The position numbers and the translations under genes were made by a program. A DNA stretch of 15,070 nucleotides from a bacterium (GTDB lineage Bacteria; UBA9089; CG2-30-40-21; SBAY01), in contig JBFLYA010000088.1 of assembly GCA_040757115.1 (NCBI GenBank), positions 1-15,070 of the forward strand, written 5' to 3'. Each line of letters opens with the position of its first letter. Position 1 is the first letter of the stretch. A model generated the notes under the pieces. It was not told the DNA's origin, made no database searches, and saw nothing but the letters and a program-made list of their open reading frames with translations. Shown one piece after another: positions 1 to 15,070 of the stretch.

Positions 1-1617
1 GTATTTCAACGCCTGTTCCAATTCCCCCATATCGCTATAAACTATGCCGATATTGCCCAGGTCAGAAGCCTCTCCCGACAGATACCCTATCTGCTTATGG
101 AGCTCAAGAGCCTGCTTATGGTATTTCAACGCCTGTTCCAATTCCCCCATATCGTAATAAACCGAGCCGATATTGCCCAGTTGATTAGCCTCTCCCTGCA
201 GATACCCTATCTGCTTATGGAGCTCAAGAGCCTGCTTGAAGTATTTCAACGCCTGTTCCAATTCCCCCATATCGCGATAAACTATGCCGATATTGCCCAG
301 GTCAGAAGCCTCTCCCTGCAGATACCCTATCTGCTTATCTATCTCAAGAGCCTGCTTATGGTATTTCAACGCCTGTTCCAATTCCCCCATATCGCTATAA
401 ACCAGGCCGATATTGCCCAGTTGATTAGCCTCTCCCTGCAGATACCCTATCTGCTTATCTATCTCAAGAGCCTGCTTATGGTATTTCAACGCCTGTTCCA
501 ATTCCCCCATATCGCGATAAACCAGGCCGATATTGCCCAGGTCAGAAGCCTCTCCCTGCAGATACCCTATCTGCTTATCTATCTCAAGAGCCTGCTTGAA
601 GTATTTCAACGCCTGTTCCAATTCCCCCATATCGCGATAAACCAGGCCGATATTGCCCAGTTGATTAGCCTCTCCCTGCAGATACCCTATCTGCTTATCT
701 ATCTCAAGAGCCTGCTTTAGGTATTTCAACGCCTGTTCCAATTCCCCCATATCGCGATAAACCAGGCCGATATTGCCCAGGTCAGAAGCCTCTCCCTGCA
801 GATACCCTATCTGCTTATCTATCTCAAGAGCCTGCTTGAAGTATTTCAACGCCTGTTCCAATTCCCCCATATCGCGATAAACCAGGCCGATATTGCCCAG
901 GTCAGAAGCCTCTCCCTGCAGATACCCTATCTGCTTATCTATCTCAAGAGCCTGCTTGAAGTATTTCAACGCCTGTTCCAATTCCCCCATATCGCGATAA
1001 ACCAGGCCAATATTGCCCAGGTGATTAGCCTCTCCCTGCAGATACCCTATCTGCTTATCTATCTCAAGAGCCTGCTTGAAGTATTTCAACGCCTGTTCCA
1101 ATTCCCCCATATCGCGATAAACCAGGCCAATATTGCCCAGGTGATTAGCCTCTCCCTGCAGATACCCTATCTGCTTATGGAGCTCAAGAGCCTGCTTATG
1201 GTATTTCAACGCCTGTTCCAATTCCCCCATATCGCGATAAACCAGGCCGATATTGCCCAGTTGATTAGCCTCTCCCTGCAGATACCCTATCTGCTTATCT
1301 ATCTCAAGAGCCTGCTTGAAGTATTTCAACGCCTGTTCCAATTCCCCCATATCGCGATAAACTATGCCGATATTGCCCAGGTCAGAAGCCTCTCCCTGCA
1401 GATACCCTATCTGCTTATCTATCTCAAGAGCCTGCTTATGGTATTTCAACGCCTGTTCCAATTCCCCCATATCGCTATAAACCAGGCCGATATTACCCAA
1501 GGCAGAAGCCTCTCCCTGCAGATACCCTATCTGCTTATCTATCTCAAGAGCCTGCTTGAAGTATTTCAACGCCTGTTCCAATTCCCCCATATCGCGATAA
1601 ACCAGGCCAATATTGCC
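1..1617 (-). repeat. Tandem 120-bp repeat array encoding near-identical TPRs
   Basis: Thirteen complete 120-bp units plus part of a fourteenth begin at 1, 121, 241 and so on to 1561, with no indels, so the frame is kept. On the minus strand each unit encodes a TPR with the canonical G8, Y11, G15, A20 and A27 (core NIGLVYRDMGELEQALKY). The units differ at only a few places: TPR positions 2-3 (NQ, NH, SD or SA), 9 (L, I or S), 12 (R, S or Y), 24 (H, F or L), 30-31 (ID or LH) and once at position 38. The array continues left of the window. Copy number should be treated with caution, because short-read assemblies collapse such arrays. Confidence 0.97.
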
Positions 1618-2355
1618 AATGACTGTTGCTTCATTTCTGTAAATTTTGGCTCTTTTAAACAGTGGCAGGGCTATTTCATAATACCTTAGCGCATCCTGGA
1701 AATTTGAAAGCTCCTGGTGAAGGTAGCCAATCTCAAAAGCCAGGTCAGCCTTTGCTTCTTCAGATAACGACTCTGCCTGAGTTCTGAAGGTTTCTGTCAG
1801 AGAGGCAAGCCTCTGCTCATTTTCCGAAGGTTCTTCTGCCTTTTGAGCAATTTCCCGGCGAACCTTTGCCTCATCTCCAAACCGGAAGACACCTGACTTA
1901 AATGTATAAAAATCCGGGGCTTTAAAGATAACCAGGTTTAAGAGAGAATCATCTACGAAGAATATCAGACTGAGATTTTGCTGACCGATTTTATCTCGGT
2001 TAAGGTTTATCCCCTGCAGAAACCGGCTAAGGCTCGGCTCATCTTCCCTGATAGAGACAATATCCCGGATTAAAAAGACAGGTTTCAAACAGGGTTTGGG
2101 CTTGGTTAAAAAGTACTGCTCAATTTTGGCAAAGGGGTCAATTATGGTTGGCGACAAAAAGATAGAATAGCAATCAAACTCCCTGGCCATCTCACTTGCG
2201 ATTCTCTCAGCCAGTTCATTTTCTACATCCGAAGTTTCACAACTAATAAAAAAAAGGCAGCCCCGGTTTTTAAAAAGGCGGAGTTGATGAAAGAGGCGGG
2301 GAATCTGAAGTTCATCCTTTTTACGAAAGACAACTGTTTTATCAGGCTTTTTCAT
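1..2355 (-). CDS. TPR repeat protein with a degenerate STAND-like NTPase head (3' end beyond window)
   Basis: 785 codons are open from ATG 2355 to the window edge with no stop; the C-terminus is missing. Residues 1-160 look like an inactivated P-loop fold: a hydrophobic strand near 33-38 (CLFFIS) followed by CETSDVENEL where a Walker A would be, KPVFLIRDI (91-99) at the Walker B position without the acidic pair, and APDFYTFKSGVF (146-157). I recall a closely similar APDF-W-x-SGVF phrase from bacterial TPR proteins with STAND-type heads (memory, not searched). Residues about 170-200 form a charged linker, 203-242 a diverged TPR, then near-identical 40-residue TPRs. The start overlaps the upstream ATPase by 14 nt, which implies coupled translation and a shared function. 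A role as a target-binding sensor or scaffold paired with the ATPase is inference. Confidence 0.85.
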   Translation of the reverse strand, partial: MKKPDKTVVFRKKDELQIPRLFHQLRLFKNRGCLFFISCETSDVENELAERIASEMAREFDCYSIFLSPTIIDPFAKIEQYFLTKPKPCLKPVFLIRDIVSIREDEPSLSRFLQGINLNRDKIGQQNLSLIFFVDDSLLNLVIFKAPDFYTFKSGVFRFGDEAKVRREIAQKAEEPSENEQRLASLTETFRTQAESLSEEAKADLAFEIGYLHQELSNFQDALRYYEIALPLFKRAKIYRNEATVIGNIGLVYRDMGELEQALKYFKQALEIDKQIGYLQGEASALGNIGLVYSDMGELEQALKYHKQALEIDKQIGYLQGEASDLGNIGIVYRDMGELEQALKYFKQALEIDKQIGYLQGEANQLGNIGLVYRDMGELEQALKYHKQALELHKQIGYLQGEANHLGNIGLVYRDMGELEQALKYFKQALEIDKQIGYLQGEANHLGNIGLVYRDMGELEQALKYFKQALEIDKQIGYLQGEASDLGNIGLVYRDMGELEQALKYFKQALEIDKQIGYLQGEASDLGNIGLVYRDMGELEQALKYLKQALEIDKQIGYLQGEANQLGNIGLVYRDMGELEQALKYFKQALEIDKQIGYLQGEASDLGNIGLVYRDMGELEQALKYHKQALEIDKQIGYLQGEANQLGNIGLVYSDMGELEQALKYHKQALEIDKQIGYLQGEASDLGNIGIVYRDMGELEQALKYFKQALELHKQIGYLQGEANQLGNIGSVYYDMGELEQALKYHKQALELHKQIGYLSGEASDLGNIGIVYSDMGELEQALKY

Positions 2356-3658
2356 TTTGTTTAATCTTCCTGTATTCTTCTACATCTGATATTAATAAAG
2401 GATGGATATCGCACCATTCATCACCATTCATATATTCGAGGGCAAACAGGGAATGGAATAATTCTAAAGCTTCTACCCTATCCGGGCTGAGGAGTCTCTT
2501 GTGGTCATATATTTCAAGCAATATATCATAATAAGTACGGTTAAGGGCACGCTTTTTATTTGCCCGCTCTTCATTGATAGCTGTTTCCATGTCAACAGTA
2601 TCAATCTTTTTACCGCCCTGGACCCTTGAATAACTTGAGGCAGAGGCAATAAGATCAATTAAGGTACGGAACACACCCCCACTGGCATCTACAGCCATAT
2701 TCAAGGCATTGTCTTCAATCAAATCCTTTTCCATCCGCTTAAACACAAGCTGTCGCAGGGTTTCTCTATGTTTTATAGCTTTTTCATCTTCTTTGCCATC
2801 TCTATCTTTCAACCTCAGATTACGCAGGACCTTTTGCCGCCCAATCTTGCTAACAATCACCGCACTCTTTGGTGAATAAATCATTGAGATAGGAATAGTA
2901 AGCAAGGCACTGCACTTAATATCGCCAATAATATTTCCCTCTTCAAAGAAAAGCTTTTCTGCCTGTGTGGGACCAGTCTTGTCCAGATCGTCTATAATCA
3001 GCAATATATCACGTGGTGTAATTGATAGTTTGATATTAAGGATAATATCGTTGACTAAATTACGCAGGTCAGTAACCTTAACCCTGTAAAATTCACGAAT
3101 CTGTTTGCGTGTTTCAGACTGCAGTCGTACTTTTGCGAAAAAGTCAGCACCCAGTCTTACAAAAGGGAATTTGAAACCCGTCTTTGCCTCTACGCCTCCT
3201 CCAATTTCACCATTTCTTGCTTTTGTAGTAGTCTTTTCGATTTGCAACTTGTCGGTGAAATAGCCCTCCATCTCTTTTAAACGCTCTTGCAAATATCCCG
3301 GCAGAGTAGTGTTTGTTTTTTCTGCCTTCTCTAAAATCTTAAAGGTCATAGTGAGCAAAAAGTCAATAATATCTATATCATTAATATCAAGCACTTCATT
3401 GGCGCTGTATTTAACCACTAAATACTTTGCATTAATTGCTTCATCATAGTCAATCTTGTTCAGTTCAGTTGACTTACCATTGCCCGGATGTCCACCAAGG
3501 AGAAATTTTAGCCCCCGGTTAGTGGTCAGAAGGTCATCTTTGATTATCTCAATCTCCTTTCGTTCTGTCTCCACATACCAGGGATCATCTTTTGGACAAA
3601 GGGGTTTCTGGCTATCGAAACAATTTATCACATCATCCAATTTAGAAGCCTTTGACAT
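2342..3658 (-). CDS. P-loop ATPase (AAA/KAP/STAND-like) paired with the TPR protein
   Basis: A 438-residue predicted ATPase. Walker A is GGHPGNGKST (55-64) and Walker B is ILLIIDDLDK (218-227). A sensor-like strand (ALLTIPISM) lies at 251-259. The C-terminal part (about 375-430, including LEYMNGDEWCDIHPLL) resembles a winged-helix domain of the kind that follows many AAA/STAND ATPase modules. Residues 146-175 are glycine-rich and then hydrophobic (NGEIGGGVEAKTG, then FKFPFVRLGADFFAKV), an unusual insert between the Walker motifs. ATG 3658 has AGAGGTG five bases upstream and a strong promoter just before it. The 3' end overlaps the TPR gene by 14 nt. I do not recognise a named family. A nucleotide-driven switch acting with the TPR partner, possibly in defence, is inference; ATP binding is well supported by the motifs. 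Confidence 0.88.
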   Translation of the reverse strand: MSKASKLDDVINCFDSQKPLCPKDDPWYVETERKEIEIIKDDLLTTNRGLKFLLGGHPGNGKSTELNKIDYDEAINAKYLVVKYSANEVLDINDIDIIDFLLTMTFKILEKAEKTNTTLPGYLQERLKEMEGYFTDKLQIEKTTTKARNGEIGGGVEAKTGFKFPFVRLGADFFAKVRLQSETRKQIREFYRVKVTDLRNLVNDIILNIKLSITPRDILLIIDDLDKTGPTQAEKLFFEEGNIIGDIKCSALLTIPISMIYSPKSAVIVSKIGRQKVLRNLRLKDRDGKEDEKAIKHRETLRQLVFKRMEKDLIEDNALNMAVDASGGVFRTLIDLIASASSYSRVQGGKKIDTVDMETAINEERANKKRALNRTYYDILLEIYDHKRLLSPDRVEALELFHSLFALEYMNGDEWCDIHPLLISDVEEYRKIKQNEKA

Positions 3659-3979: not shown

Positions 3980-4066
3980 CTACTGTAGGGCCTTTGGGGT
4001 CAGACCAGCCAGGATAGCAATGCCAATAAAATTCAAATAATCACCCTTGCCGACCAGAATTTCCTC
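3980..4066 (-). pseudogene. Possible gene fragment encoding a hydrophobic C-terminal tail
   Basis: In a frame different from the overlapping nucleotidyltransferase tail, 28 codons read EEILVGKGDYLNF then IGIAILAGLTPKALQ and stop at 3980. This looks like natural protein (a polar turn followed by a membrane helix) rather than random frame, but it has no start of its own. It begins inside the 14-bp sequence shared with the DUF6922 ribosome site at 4939-4952, so it may be the tail of another gene joined here by recombination. I do not recognise the family. The rest of 3936-4040 holds nothing else I can identify. Confidence 0.25.
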
Positions 4067-4679
4067 CCCATTTAATTTCTTTTACTTCTGACTCAAAAAA
4101 ATCTTTTACTTTCGCCCAATCGATTTCAATCAACAGGTTAGGCATAGGTTCTTTGTCAGCATCATCAAAATAAGTTAAACTTTTAAGAATGTGAATAATA
4201 TTATAATTTACACTTTTATATTTTTCTCTAAAAAATCCTAATATTTCCCTGAGATGTCTTTTTTGTTGACAAATGACATATAAATCAATAAAATCTCTTC
4301 GACTTCCTCTTGAGGAAATAGCATCCATCTTCATACAAGCAATATCTAAAATATCTGCTACTTTTATGCCCATAAAATCTTTAGTTGAAAACAAAAGTGG
4401 ATAGGGATATTTAAAAAAACTAACTTTTGTTCCTTCAAATATTCCTATAACTGTATTAGGTGACTTTTTTTCCAATATAAAATCACCTTTTTCTATAAGT
4501 CTTTCTATACATAAATTAGTATCAATATCCATTGGTGTAAAGAAATCTAAATCCAATGATTGACGATGTCCTAATTGTAACGCTACTCCTGTTTCACCTA
4601 CTAAATAATAATCCTTACATAGTAATCTTAATAATTCCATATTGGACTTTGTTGCTTTTGAAATGACCTTTTCAAACAT
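4041..4679 (-). CDS. AbiEii/AbiGii-type nucleotidyltransferase (toxin-like)
   Basis: 212 residues. The segment YYLVGETGVALQLGHRQS (24-41) runs into LDLDFF (42-47) and matches the AbiEii nucleotidyltransferase core, with D43 and D45 as the expected metal ligands. GIKVADILDIACMKMDA (104-120) and GSRRDFIDLYVI (125-136) are the usual downstream motifs. The family normally has GGTAL-AL; here the second glycine is glutamate (GETGVAL), which might affect activity. AbiEii-type toxins transfer nucleotides to RNA targets; the substrate here is unknown. ATG 4679 has GAGGAAA upstream. It overlaps the DUF6922 gene by 52 nt, as in other pairs of these two families. The last eight residues (GGNSGRQG) follow a natural-looking end (KEIKW) and may be read-through into joined DNA. 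The gene is visibly more AT-rich than the housekeeping genes. Confidence 0.85.
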   Translation of the reverse strand: MFEKVISKATKSNMELLRLLCKDYYLVGETGVALQLGHRQSLDLDFFTPMDIDTNLCIERLIEKGDFILEKKSPNTVIGIFEGTKVSFFKYPYPLLFSTKDFMGIKVADILDIACMKMDAISSRGSRRDFIDLYVICQQKRHLREILGFFREKYKSVNYNIIHILKSLTYFDDADKEPMPNLLIEIDWAKVKDFFESEVKEIKWGGNSGRQG

Positions 4680-4933
4680 AAAATTTCCTCTTTATTTAGG
4701 TCAAAATATAGGCGCCAGAAATTAGCACTTTTAGGAGATAGTCTTCGAGTGTGCAAAAGTGTATTTTTAATTAGCTGTATAGAAAAACTCTTTATCATCC
4801 AGAAAATAGCCTTTTCATCTCCATATTCTAATATTCGCTCAATGATAAAGTTAGAATAGTTATCTTTATTTAGAGCTTCGAATGATATATCCCAGAAATA
4901 TTTTTTTAAATATTTAGGCAACCTATTACTCAC
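4628..4933 (-). CDS. DUF6922-type protein, probable antitoxin partner
   Basis: 101 residues. LPKYLKKYFWDISFEALN (5-22), IIERILEYGDEKAIFWMIKSF and RRLSPKSANFWRLYF match, from memory, the small DUF6922 family that commonly precedes AbiEii-like nucleotidyltransferases. It starts with GTG at 4933 behind a strong GGGGAGGA site. The 52-nt overlap with the toxin-like gene implies coupled expression. No helix-turn-helix is evident, so its role as an antitoxin is inferred from position. The promoter region was remodelled by the element at 4964-5430, which sits 31 bp upstream of the start. Confidence 0.8.
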   Translation of the reverse strand: MSNRLPKYLKKYFWDISFEALNKDNYSNFIIERILEYGDEKAIFWMIKSFSIQLIKNTLLHTRRLSPKSANFWRLYFDLNKEEILCLKRSFQKQQSPIWNY

Positions 4934-5930: not shown

Positions 5931-8757
<2,827 letters not shown>

Positions 8758-8782
8758 TTTTGCTCCCAAAAAACTTATTGCT

Positions 8783-11976: not shown

Positions 11977-13170
11977 CTACTCTCTACTCACTACGGTAAT
12001 CAATCCTTCTTCATACGCCTGCAAAAATGCCTTGACTACATCAGGGTCAAATTGGAATCCAGCCTGCTCCTTTAATTCATCTAAAGCCTGTTGATGTGGT
12101 AACCCCTGACGATATGGTCTATCTGAGGTCATAGCATCAAAAGTATCGGCAATGGCTAATATTCTCCCCATTAGAGATATCTCTACATCTTTTACCCCAG
12201 AGGGATACCCTTTTCCATCATATCGCTCATGATGTTGGAAAACACCAGGAATAATAGCATCTAACTGTTTTATTGGCTTAATAATCTCTTTTCCAATACC
12301 GGGATGTCTTTTTACCTCGGCAAATTCTTCCTCTGTCAATCTACCAGGTTTTTTAATGATAGATTCATTAATACCTATCTTGCCAATATCATGAAGTAAT
12401 CCTGCCAATCTAATGGTTTCTTTTTCATTTTCATTCAAATTTAATTTCATTGTAATTGCTTGAGAATATTGCATTACTCGTTCACTATGGCCTCTGGTGT
12501 AAGGGTCTTTGGCTTCAATCGTGGTCACTAAGGCTTTGATACTATTAAAAAATAACTCTTTCAGGTCTTCATACAACTTCGCATTTTCAATCGCAATCCC
12601 CTCTTGATTAGCCATTGCCTGCAATAATTCTAAATCAGCGGTTGAAAATCCCTCATCCCCAATTTTATTGATTGCCTCGACTACTCCAATTACCCTATCT
12701 TTAATTAATAATGGCACACATAGAAGTGATTTCGTCACGAACTTAATTTCTTCATCAATCTTTCGATAAAATCTCGTGTCCTGACTAACATCTTTGATGG
12801 AAAGGGGCTGTTTGTTTTTAACTACCCAGCCCGCTACTCCCTCAGTAATAGGTAATTTAATCTTTTTTAACTCATTCTTTTTCTCGCCAATAGCAACCTC
12901 AAAAACAAAATGCTCATCTTCGATTAACATTAACGAAGATGCCTCTGCTTTCATCAGTTTAGTCGTCAGTTCCATAATCAAGGGTAATAATTCCTTTATT
13001 TGCAATGTCGAGGTGACAATTTGACTGACTTCAATTAATGATTCTAAATTATAGACTCGTTGACAGATATTTTTAAAAGATTTCTCAAATGCGTTAAACT
13101 TTTCGCTTGTCCCAATTTTTCCCATTAGCTCTTCTAATTGCCTTTGGGCTAATTTTATGTCATCTTTCAT
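11977..13170 (-). CDS. GAF domain plus HD-GYP cyclic-di-GMP phosphodiesterase
   Basis: 397 residues from ATG 13170. Residues about 45-197 are a GAF sensor domain (LIEVSQIVTSTLQI ... GVAGWVVKNKQPLSIKDV ... SLLCVPLLIKDRVIGVVEAINK). Residues about 205-390 are an HD-GYP domain with the metal-binding H260-D261 (LLHDIGKIG) and HHERYDGKGYP (313-323). Such enzymes hydrolyse cyclic di-GMP, the GAF domain presumably sensing a small ligand. A TTG at 13239 would add 23 residues, but those codons come from the end of an inserted element; ATG 13170 has AGAGG upstream and is preferred. Before the insertion this gene lay 14 nt after the epsI stop. Confidence 0.93.
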   Translation of the reverse strand: MKDDIKLAQRQLEELMGKIGTSEKFNAFEKSFKNICQRVYNLESLIEVSQIVTSTLQIKELLPLIMELTTKLMKAEASSLMLIEDEHFVFEVAIGEKKNELKKIKLPITEGVAGWVVKNKQPLSIKDVSQDTRFYRKIDEEIKFVTKSLLCVPLLIKDRVIGVVEAINKIGDEGFSTADLELLQAMANQEGIAIENAKLYEDLKELFFNSIKALVTTIEAKDPYTRGHSERVMQYSQAITMKLNLNENEKETIRLAGLLHDIGKIGINESIIKKPGRLTEEEFAEVKRHPGIGKEIIKPIKQLDAIIPGVFQHHERYDGKGYPSGVKDVEISLMGRILAIADTFDAMTSDRPYRQGLPHQQALDELKEQAGFQFDPDVVKAFLQAYEEGLITVVSRE

Positions 13171-13215
13171 ATCTGATATAACCTCTATTGGGGGATATTT
13201 GTCCCCATCATAAGA

Positions 13216-13434
13216 TCTTATCGTTACCCACAAGTCCAAATATAGTTAATTGACAATTATCAATTAGCCATTATCAATTCACAATTAATATTTGATGTTG
13301 ACAAAATTAACAAATAATGGTCAATTGTTAATTGTAAATTGTCAATTGTTAATTATTGGGGGTTGCATATCTCTGTTATTTCACAGTACTTCCCCTCAAA
13401 AATCTTCCCTCTCAAGATGTGGGTAACGATAAGA
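13216..13434. mobile_element. Palindromic element, 219 bp, inserted in the 3' end of epsI
   Basis: Perfect 17-bp inverted ends TCTTATCGTTACCCACA (13216-13232 and complement 13418-13434), flanked by a perfect 8-bp direct repeat TCATAAGA at 13208-13215 and 13435-13442. The interior is AT-rich inverted words (TTGACAATTATCAATT and similar); no gene. TTACCCACA also occurs at 14956. It supplies the present last codons and stop of epsI and an artificial upstream extension of the HD-GYP frame. Confidence 0.85.
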
Positions 13435-14059
13435 TCATAAGATATTTATCAAGTAACGGAGCTATCTCTTTAATAAAATTCTCCTCGATGGTGTCTATGT
13501 TATCTATTTTCCCCTTTTCAACAAGACTACTGATTCTAATCATCGCGGCAACACTATCTTTTCGTCTTATTTGATCAAAAACTATATTCAATTGTTGAAT
13601 ATAATAACTATGCGTATTCCTTTTACCAACTCTAAACCAGTAGATTGTAAGGAATTCGGTATCTTTTTCTTTAATATATAATTTATTACATCCAATCTTT
13701 CCGTGATTAATTTGAATTTGAACTATCTCTTTTTTAAGGAACTGGGTCCCTCCCCCTGTAAGACAAATCTCTGGTGGATGAAATGCCTCTGGATTGACAC
13801 TACTTGCCACGATAAAAAGTAAAACCGTATCTCCCTTTGTATTTGTGTATGCTCGCAGAAGTAAATCACTCTTCCTTAACATCTTATAAACCCTCTCTTC
13901 AATAGGGTAGTCCTCACCCTTCCATTCACCAATTATTTTTGGAAAATGTTTTAGATTGGTCTCTCGAATCGGTGGTGAAGGTAAAGAAAGAAAAATTATA
14001 ATTAATAACGCCACTGATAATAAAACTATGACTATAGTATAATTTTTTTTAGTTTCCAT
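13412..14059 (-). CDS. epsI: EpsI-family exosortase-associated protein (DUF3485), 3' end altered
   Basis: 215 residues. A signal-anchor helix (YTIVIVLLSVALLIIIFLSL, 7-26), then FPKIIGEWKGEDY, FHPPEICLTGGG (the family's H-x-PE-x-C motif) and LTIYWFRVGKRNTHSYYIQQLN, all typical of EpsI. Proteins of this family accompany exosortases and act in export or assembly of surface polysaccharide; the precise step is unknown. The ATG overlaps the exosortase stop by 11 nt. The last residues (ILSLPTS) are encoded by the end of the 219-bp element. With it removed the frame continues LMMGTNIPQ and stops at 13185, 14 nt before the HD-GYP start. The change is confined to the extreme C-terminus, so function may survive. 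Confidence 0.87.
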   Translation of the reverse strand: METKKNYTIVIVLLSVALLIIIFLSLPSPPIRETNLKHFPKIIGEWKGEDYPIEERVYKMLRKSDLLLRAYTNTKGDTVLLFIVASSVNPEAFHPPEICLTGGGTQFLKKEIVQIQINHGKIGCNKLYIKEKDTEFLTIYWFRVGKRNTHSYYIQQLNIVFDQIRRKDSVAAMIRISSLVEKGKIDNIDTIEENFIKEIAPLLDKYLMILSLPTS

Positions 14060-14897
14060 TTTTTCCCTCTTTATGCCAGGTTAAAACCTTTCCAATTGCT
14101 CCTAATCCTATTAAGGCGATGATAAATACCAATAATCCGGCGAGGGTATGCGTTGGTTCTGTTAATGCAGCCTCATGACCATAGACATAAGTGATGAGTG
14201 TCAGGAAAATTATTCTCACGATATTAGATAAAATAGCCACAGGCACAGCAGAGAAAAATAGAATAATTCTCCTTAAAAATGATATAGATAAAATATTGGC
14301 AAATAGTGTCCCTAAGGCTAAAAGTGTAATTAAAGATCTGAGTCCACTGCACGGTTCACCAACTTCAAGGAAATCATCCGGTAAATTTATTCTTGCTCCT
14401 TCCATAGATACCGGGATACCCATTAAATTTATAGAGACAGTCGCCCAGTAGGTTGCAAACATCTTAAGATGAAATGTTAAAAAAAGAGTAAATACCTCCG
14501 GCAGAGGAACCATAAAAACCAGGAAACTTATTGGGAAAATAAGTTTCCTGGTCATTTTAGCCCCTAAAAGATATAAACATAGTCCAAAAATGACAATAAT
14601 AAGTGAAAAGCCGCTGACAAAGTCTATTAAAAAACAACGGCTTACCAGATGAATTAATAATCCTGCACAAAATAGTATTAATCCTTTTGCACAGGAGATA
14701 ACTGGTATCTTTTTTAACTCATCCTTCATTTTCCAGATTAAGAATAAGGAGATAATGGGAATTAATGGACCATGAGTATAGTTTGACTCCCCTTCTAAAT
14801 ATTTATATTTCATCCAGAAAAAGGTTGGTAAATAGACGAGGATGACCAAAATAACCACTATCCAAACTTTTATCTTTGACCAGATAATCATAACCAC
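14049..14897 (-). CDS. Exosortase
   Basis: 282 residues, multi-pass inner-membrane transpeptidase of the exosortase/archaeosortase family. Catalytic residues are visible: C183 in GEPCSGLRSL, R228 in LSNIVRIIF and H250 in PTHTLAG. THGPLIPIISLFLIW (41-55) is the usual N-terminal signature. About eight membrane helices. These enzymes process proteins with a PEP-CTERM-like sorting tail for export; no such substrate lies in the window. ATG 14897 follows AGGTGG with a short 2-nt gap; an in-frame ATG at 14891 has better spacing and is possible. The first visible gene of the set, coupled to epsI by an 11-nt overlap. Confidence 0.92.
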   Translation of the reverse strand: MVMIIWSKIKVWIVVILVILVYLPTFFWMKYKYLEGESNYTHGPLIPIISLFLIWKMKDELKKIPVISCAKGLILFCAGLLIHLVSRCFLIDFVSGFSLIIVIFGLCLYLLGAKMTRKLIFPISFLVFMVPLPEVFTLFLTFHLKMFATYWATVSINLMGIPVSMEGARINLPDDFLEVGEPCSGLRSLITLLALGTLFANILSISFLRRIILFFSAVPVAILSNIVRIIFLTLITYVYGHEAALTEPTHTLAGLLVFIIALIGLGAIGKVLTWHKEGKNGN

Positions 14898-14948: not shown

Positions 14949-15070
14949 CTAATCATTACCCACATCTTTTAGTGGACAGATTTGATAGAAATTCCAAATT
15001 CCAAGCACCAAATTCCAAATAAATTCCAAATTCCAAGCACCAAATCCCAAACACCAAATTCCAAAGTTTA
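14949..15070. mobile_element. Left part of another palindromic element (runs off the window)
   Basis: TTACCCACATCTTTTAGTGGACAG at 14956-14979 (shown for its two conserved parts) combines TTACCCACA of the 13216-13434 element with a TTTTA-TGGACA like that of the 11804-11967 element. It is followed by AAATTCCAAGCACC words to the window edge. No gene is visible in 14898-15070. The partner end would be outside the window. Confidence 0.5.

Follow-up and report, generated by a model that had tools for sequence, protein, structure and literature searches.

Introduction

Receptors built on near-identical repeats have been described in both fungi and bacteria. Repeats of high internal conservation (HIC) are those that are more than 85% identical to one another across 100 aa or more, and in fungal NLR genes with TPR repeats the number of repeats is polymorphic and the sites under selection map to the concave face (PMC4986451). 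In the HNWD genes of Podospora the positively selected codons 7, 9, 25 and 27 lie around the constrained codons 8 and 26 (PMC1805685). In bacteria, near-identical WD40 and WRAP beta-propeller sensors carry their diversity at interaction hotspots, and a role in innate immunity has been inferred for them (PMC5587647, PMC9218822).

The locus described here resembles the HIC NLRs of Podospora anserina (HNWD het-d and het-e with WD40 repeats, and NB-ARC/TPR genes) in its near-identical repeats, its changes in copy number and its few variable codons. Unlike these it is bacterial, its NTPase is a separate, overlapping gene, the N-terminal domain (N-domain) in cis has no Walker A motif, no effector was identified, and it is known from its sequence and not from an allorecognition phenotype. 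It differs from the prokaryotic WD40 and WRAP proteins in being a TPR solenoid, with an AAA+/STAND-like ATPase as operon partner and a predicted pseudo-AAA+ N-domain, and not a TIR protein. The bacterial antiviral STAND proteins (Avs/bNACHT) and APAF-1/CED-4 likewise combine a STAND-like NTPase switch and a repeat sensor at the C-terminus, but here the system is split over two genes, no effector domain was identified, and the likeness seen is one of fold. The VMAP-ternary and DGR-diversified conflict systems follow the same logic of an ATPase and a hypervariable sensor, with TPR or beta-propeller parts (PMC7159879; PMC10907252); unlike them, the window has no recognised MoxR-vWA couple and no DGR target.

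The combination as such is already known, from fungal NLRs with HIC TPR, ANK or WD repeats (PMC4986451) and from prokaryotic WD40 proteins with variable hotspots (PMC5587647, PMC9218822). The literature searched yielded no description of the layout in two genes, nor of the adaptor domain with its exchangeable sensors. Since the known HIC receptors share the combination, and the two-gene layout and the adaptor with exchangeable sensors differ, the locus is best seen as a variant of the known HIC repeat receptors.

Gene pair and surroundings

The window, the whole stretch of 15,070 nucleotides that was analysed, is also the whole of contig C88 of genome G000 (4.3 Mb, 462 contigs, 99.87% complete). 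Its left end is occupied by a TPR protein gene on the reverse strand (1..2355, ATG at 2355), 785 aa long with the 3' end cut by the contig edge, the frame being open past base 1 (Pfam TPR_12, 5.6e-137). The protein begins with an alpha/beta domain (aa 1-165, 1861..2355, reverse strand), followed by a helical linker and a degenerate TPR ahead of the array (aa 166-242, 1630..1860, same strand), where helices start from residue 162 and a Pfam TPR_9 match starts at aa 211. An AlphaFold2 model of the N-domain (201 residues, mean pLDDT 83.8, pTM 0.73) matched ORC2/Cdc6, NSF, TnsC and Trip13 with Z up to 11.7 and an rmsd of 3.6 over 151 residues. The Walker A motif (GxxxxGK[ST]) is absent from the N-domain in 13 of 13 homologues. 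The prediction is an AAA+ fold without Walker A, a pseudo-ATPase or adaptor. The N-domain sequence had no match among solved structures and the domain none in plasmid and phage collections.

The partner gene lies upstream, with a 14-bp overlap into the TPR gene (2342..3658, reverse strand). It encodes a 438 aa AAA+/STAND-like ATPase with a winged-helix region, the Walker A motif GHPGNGKS and a Walker B-like LLIIDDLDK. Its model (pLDDT 78.6, pTM 0.78) matched the fold of Cdc6/ORC with Z 16.5, and those of TnsC (Z 15.3) and CED-4 (Z 14.4) over most of the length. Pfam gave no match to the window ATPase itself, and diverged members of the family match AAA_16 and AAA_22. The model thus predicts an NTPase fold of the STAND/ORC type, either AAA+ or STAND, supplied in trans; the intact NTPase is a separate gene and not fused to the repeat sensor. 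A PADLOC search gave no convincing match, the best for the ATPase being mad8 (0.003) and PDC-S20 (0.0039) and the best across the ATPase family mad8 (1.2e-4), and the matches of the TPR protein were mostly to generic TPR models. No Pfam effector domain was found in either gene; paralogues carry cyclase domains.

Upstream on the same strand follows a gene for an AbiEii-type nucleotidyltransferase (4041..4679, Pfam AbiEii 1.1e-9), whose link with the gene pair is unproven, overlapped by a gene for a DUF6922 protein (4628..4933, reverse strand, Pfam PF21956 6.3e-13), the two resembling a toxin-antitoxin pair. Toxin-antitoxin-like genes are nearby in two further contexts: in G003 a nucleotidyltransferase and HEPN pair lies downstream of the TPR gene (L034 6545-7547), and in G001 the contig has a Fic-domain gene (L033 4150-5532). 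This is compatible with the setting of a conflict system and is proof of nothing.

The rest of the window contains a second TPR protein of 526 aa (7189-8769), between enolase-like and ATP synthase genes, with ordinary diverged repeats that contrast with the near-identical array at 1-1629. A signalling protein with GAF and HD (HD_5) domains is encoded at 11980-13239, and an exosortase gene (EpsH family) overlaps a DUF3485 gene at 13412-14897. Short tandem repeats with periods of 7, 14 and 32 bp lie upstream of the exosortase gene at 14989-15065, near the right contig end.

The near-identical TPR array

Tandem Repeats Finder reported a period of 120 bp in 13.5 copies, with 93% matches and no indels, at 1..1617. 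In TPR register the array covers aa 243-785 (1..1629, reverse strand) and has 13.5 or more 40-aa units, each of which reads A-x2-x3-L-G-N-I-G-x9-V-Y-x12-D-M-G-E-L-E-Q-A-L-K-Y-x24-K-Q-A-L-E-x30-x31-K-Q-I-G-Y-L-Q-G-E. The TPR profile PF13424 matched with 446.7 bits against a curated cut-off of 30.1. The mean pairwise amino acid identity of the interior units was 0.906 (about 91%), and 0.892 in the array of G001 and 0.854 in that of G003, all above the 85% over at least 100 aa that defines HIC repeats. At the nucleotide level the units of the window differ by 6.4%. The preliminary description had noted the near-identity of 13 units also at silent sites, which holds with one correction: silent variation is low yet present, at codons 4, 5 and 7 of the unit interiors.

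The variable columns are those named earlier, 2, 3, 9, 12, 24, 30 and 31, to which we add column 38, with a single substitution. Several of the alternatives differ by more than one base (AAT-CAA or TCT-GAC; TTC, CAT or CTA; ATA-GAT or CTC-CAT). Twelve of the 13 unit states are distinct and four of the ten block pairs show all four-gamete combinations, which means that the alternatives reassort between units, as had been proposed. Over the whole TPR unit pN/pS is about 0.8 in the window and 0.5-0.9 overall, i.e. below 1, so the claim of diversity is limited to the variable columns only. The variable codons also carry much silent variation, which is what old multi-base alleles, and not recurrent new mutation, would be expected to give.

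The same description had called the variation ligand-facing, and this can be kept in part. The concave positions of a TPR are 2, 5, 9, 12, 13, 33 and 34 (PMC1261162); columns 2, 9 and 12 belong to this set and columns 3, 24, 30 and 31 fall outside it. Three of seven is not a significant enrichment in the window array (P = 0.13). If singletons are counted, enrichment appears in G001 (P = 0.02), in G003 (P = 0.02) and in the pooled arrays (P = 6e-4), but the pooled value without singletons is again 0.13, and because of this dependence we do not claim a concave-face enrichment. HIC receptors have diversifying selection confined to interaction-face codons; here there is a nonsynonymous excess at predefined columns (see below), but only those three of the seven columns are concave.

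Assembly of the arrays

The first base of the window is also that of the contig and falls inside the array; the assembly thus cuts the array, and the units counted are a minimum. Exact repeats reach 192 nt in G000, 118 nt in G001 and 74 nt in G003. With 192 nt the unit order in G000 could be misassembled from short reads; judged by these lengths the array of G003 is the firmest and the unit order of G000 the least firm. A contig carrying pth (C311) was considered as the continuation of the G000 array and rejected, as it has no array sequence. A search of G000 and G001 for a C-terminal cap resembling the one in G003 turned up internal units only.

G000 also contains dozens of copies of a MITE-like interspersed element of about 250 bp with the terminal inverted repeats GTAACCGTTCAG...CTGAACGGTTAC. 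In G001 this element stands directly after the TPR array, whose reading frame stops in it (L033, G001:C203 3289-3560), and this is either a real insertion or a misjoin. The TPR arrays of two related pairs are broken by runs of N (L099, G155:C57, 2357-4206, and L054, G001:C61, 1687-3550), consistent with assembly gaps in repeats.

Evolution of the array across genomes

Orthologous overlapping pairs of ATPase and N-domain genes were found in G001 (same genus), G003 (another genus of the same family) and G007 (same order), with N-domain amino acid identities to the window of 96%, 77% and 72%. The array is not identical among these relatives. G000 has at least 13.5 units, G001 about 10, G003 nine full units and a terminal cap unit, and G007 a single TPR unit followed by an unrelated tail. 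In G006, which has a diverged pair, only a remnant of the array is kept, and a deletion appears to have fused the end of the ATPase to the TPR protein at around its residue 190.

The comparison of repeats rests on three arrays (G000, G001 and G003), all from draft genomes. The N-domain DNA of G000 and G001 is 97.4% identical (dS 0.05), and the array units differ between these two genomes as much as inside one of them. Unit states are not conserved by position, the best-offset match being 0.57 as against 0.64 for permuted order. The variable-column set is found again in G001 and G003; the codons are the same, the silent background is in part specific to the species, and the orthologues have the same alternatives in other combinations. 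Columns 2, 3, 12, 24, 30 and 31 vary in both G000 and G003, and the codons AAT-CAA, TCT-GAC, ATA-GAT and CAT are common to the two, while silent sites (e.g. codons 7 and 27) differ by lineage. Of the polymorphic sites that are shared, 14 are nonsynonymous and 2 silent, while of the remaining ones 10 are nonsynonymous and 16 silent (P = 0.003), and the polymorphic columns overlap between genomes with P = 5e-5 to 0.003, values that are optimistic because sites within a unit are linked. A tandem-duplication signal between adjacent units was lacking in G000 and G003 and weak in G001 (P = 0.025).

To compare nonsynonymous and synonymous differences per column without circularity, columns were defined in one genus and tested in another, and unit order was not used. 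At the columns defined in G003, mean pN was 0.245 in G000, against a mean pS of 0.029 elsewhere (P = 1e-4), and 0.228 in G001, against 0.044 (P = 4e-5). At independently defined columns pN is therefore 5-8 times the pS of other columns in these two genomes. The reverse test, with G000 columns in G003, was weaker (pN 0.308, pS 0.179, P = 0.016). The suggestion that repeats are homogenised and shuffled while alternatives are kept is supported by these comparisons, as the same codons occur across genera in unit states that are unconserved by position.

The N-domain and its sister arrays

Diverged pairs of ATPase and N-domain genes were found in G002, G004, G006, G013 and G014, and also in G049 and G155 outside the phylum, an uncultured one taken here to be Desantisbacteria. 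The C-terminal parts carried by the N-domain in the diverged pairs are a class III cyclase with a STAND/NACHT-like NTPase and WD40 arrays, a cyclase with an NB-ARC-like domain and TPR, an NB-ARC-like domain with TPR, or TPR alone. By heading such varied parts, the N-domain looks like a common adaptor for exchanged sensor and signalling modules. G000 itself encodes a large protein of the first kind on contig C40 (1575 aa, L097 2140-6873), with a near-identical WD40 array, and similar proteins are found in G001 (L080 1564-6297, contig C96) and at L075, L078 and L098.

The WD40 arrays of G000 and G001 have 13 blades each, with similar terminal blades. Their entropy is concentrated at columns 5, 7, 23 and 25 (P = 6e-4 in G000 and 5e-5 in G001), with column 13 also high, and blade states do not match by position (0.23 in register and 0.27 all-against-all). 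The four columns flank the invariant V6 and D24, which is the pattern of selected codons in Podospora HNWD with the same spacing, shifted by two (PMC1805685).

Discussion

Together with the ATPase gene, the TPR gene probably forms a two-gene signalling or defence system, of which it would be the sensor half. We give about even chances to the more specific reading that the array is the recombination-shuffled sensor or binding arm of a split, NLR-like switch. In such a switch the ATPase, with its intact Walker A and its ORC/Cdc6- and CED-4-like fold, would be the nucleotide switch, and the TPR protein would dock on it via the pseudo-AAA+ N-domain. The long TPR superhelix would bind one target or a set of targets, conceivably foreign or non-self, and binding may lead to a signalling output. 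Where stretches are identical, unequal crossing-over or gene conversion between them would keep the scaffold uniform, change the number of units and re-deal a few old alternatives, and selection for new binding surfaces would keep these alternatives in play across species. The NLR-like reading is supported by the company of the N-domain, since cyclase, STAND-NTPase, NB-ARC-like, WD40 and TPR parts are the vocabulary of NLR-like proteins. It is weakened in that neither an effector domain in either gene nor a good match to a catalogued defence system was identified, by the pN/pS below 1 over the whole unit, and by columns 24 and 30, which are not classical ligand-contact positions.

An alternative is that the array is simply young or constantly homogenised, and that the variable columns merely tolerate change, with no selection for diversity. 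High internal identity is common, found in about 20% of prokaryotic WD40 proteins (PMC5587647), and repeats are generally under strongly relaxed purifying selection early on (PMC5120217); a whole-unit pN/pS of 0.5-0.9 and a variable set with only three of seven columns at classical contact positions also agree with this. Relaxed constraint predicts, however, silent variation at least equal to the nonsynonymous, and not the 5-8 times lower level observed in G000 and G001, and the same multi-base codons in two genera with a diverged silent background are too specific for independent tolerated changes. We find this explanation unlikely, though not negligible. It is rather improbable that the TPR superhelix is a housekeeping scaffold for assembly or cargo of the ATPase, with columns 24, 30 and 31 tuning packing or pitch and not recognition. 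By sequence, the nearest natural TPR proteins of solved structure include two scaffolds, LGN/Pins and kinesin light chain, but they are eukaryotic and their repeats are diverged. In a canonical TPR, columns 24 and 30-31 fall within helix B, which would suit such a role. The array is nevertheless lost or degraded in relatives (G007 and G006), and unit states that change position between sister species are unlike a fixed scaffold.

Unit order, unit number and part of the mosaic could also come from the draft assembly of a repeat, possibly from mixed strains. Genes of this kind are not reliably assembled from short reads (PMC12222747), the contig starts inside an array with a long exact repeat, and in G001 the array runs into an interspersed element of high copy number, where a misjoin is possible. 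The same alternatives are found in three genomes, however, the G003 array has a complete C-terminus and no exact repeat longer than 74 nt, the unit haplotypes span less than 100 bp and the column tests do not depend on unit order, so that an artefact of this kind is very improbable. A dedicated diversifying process, which the preliminary description had left as a possibility, finds hardly any credence with us, whether it is a retroelement (DGR) or silent donor cassettes. Reverse-transcriptase genes are present in the genome, but the two hits are on other contigs (C42 and C231), and no copy of the TPR unit, as template or donor, was found outside the array in the assembled G000 genome; the nearby reverse transcriptase and template repeat of a DGR target were thus not found, and both sources were rejected. 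Each column also has two to four fixed alternatives and not random bases at template adenines. Repeat recombination of the ordinary sort, together with selection, suffices as an explanation.

The shuffled sensor arm of a split switch is thus the reading that we carry forward. It is a more tentative proposal, and one we would sooner doubt than assert, that the locus belongs to an undescribed family of two-gene receptors, with an AAA+/STAND-like ATPase and a pseudo-AAA+ adaptor that takes interchangeable TPR or WD40 sensors, their repeats being shuffled under selection that keeps diversity. Such a family would be a bacterial counterpart of the fungal allorecognition NLRs, having reached the same WD40 contact codons. 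If this is true, repeats would be shuffled and their alternatives maintained in a bacterial ATPase system too, a process already known from fungal receptors for self and non-self, and the type of sensor, TPR or WD40, would be exchangeable on one adaptor domain. The locus would then offer a defined gene pair for testing how sensors diversify by recombination without a retroelement, and a further link between bacterial and eukaryotic NLR-like signalling.
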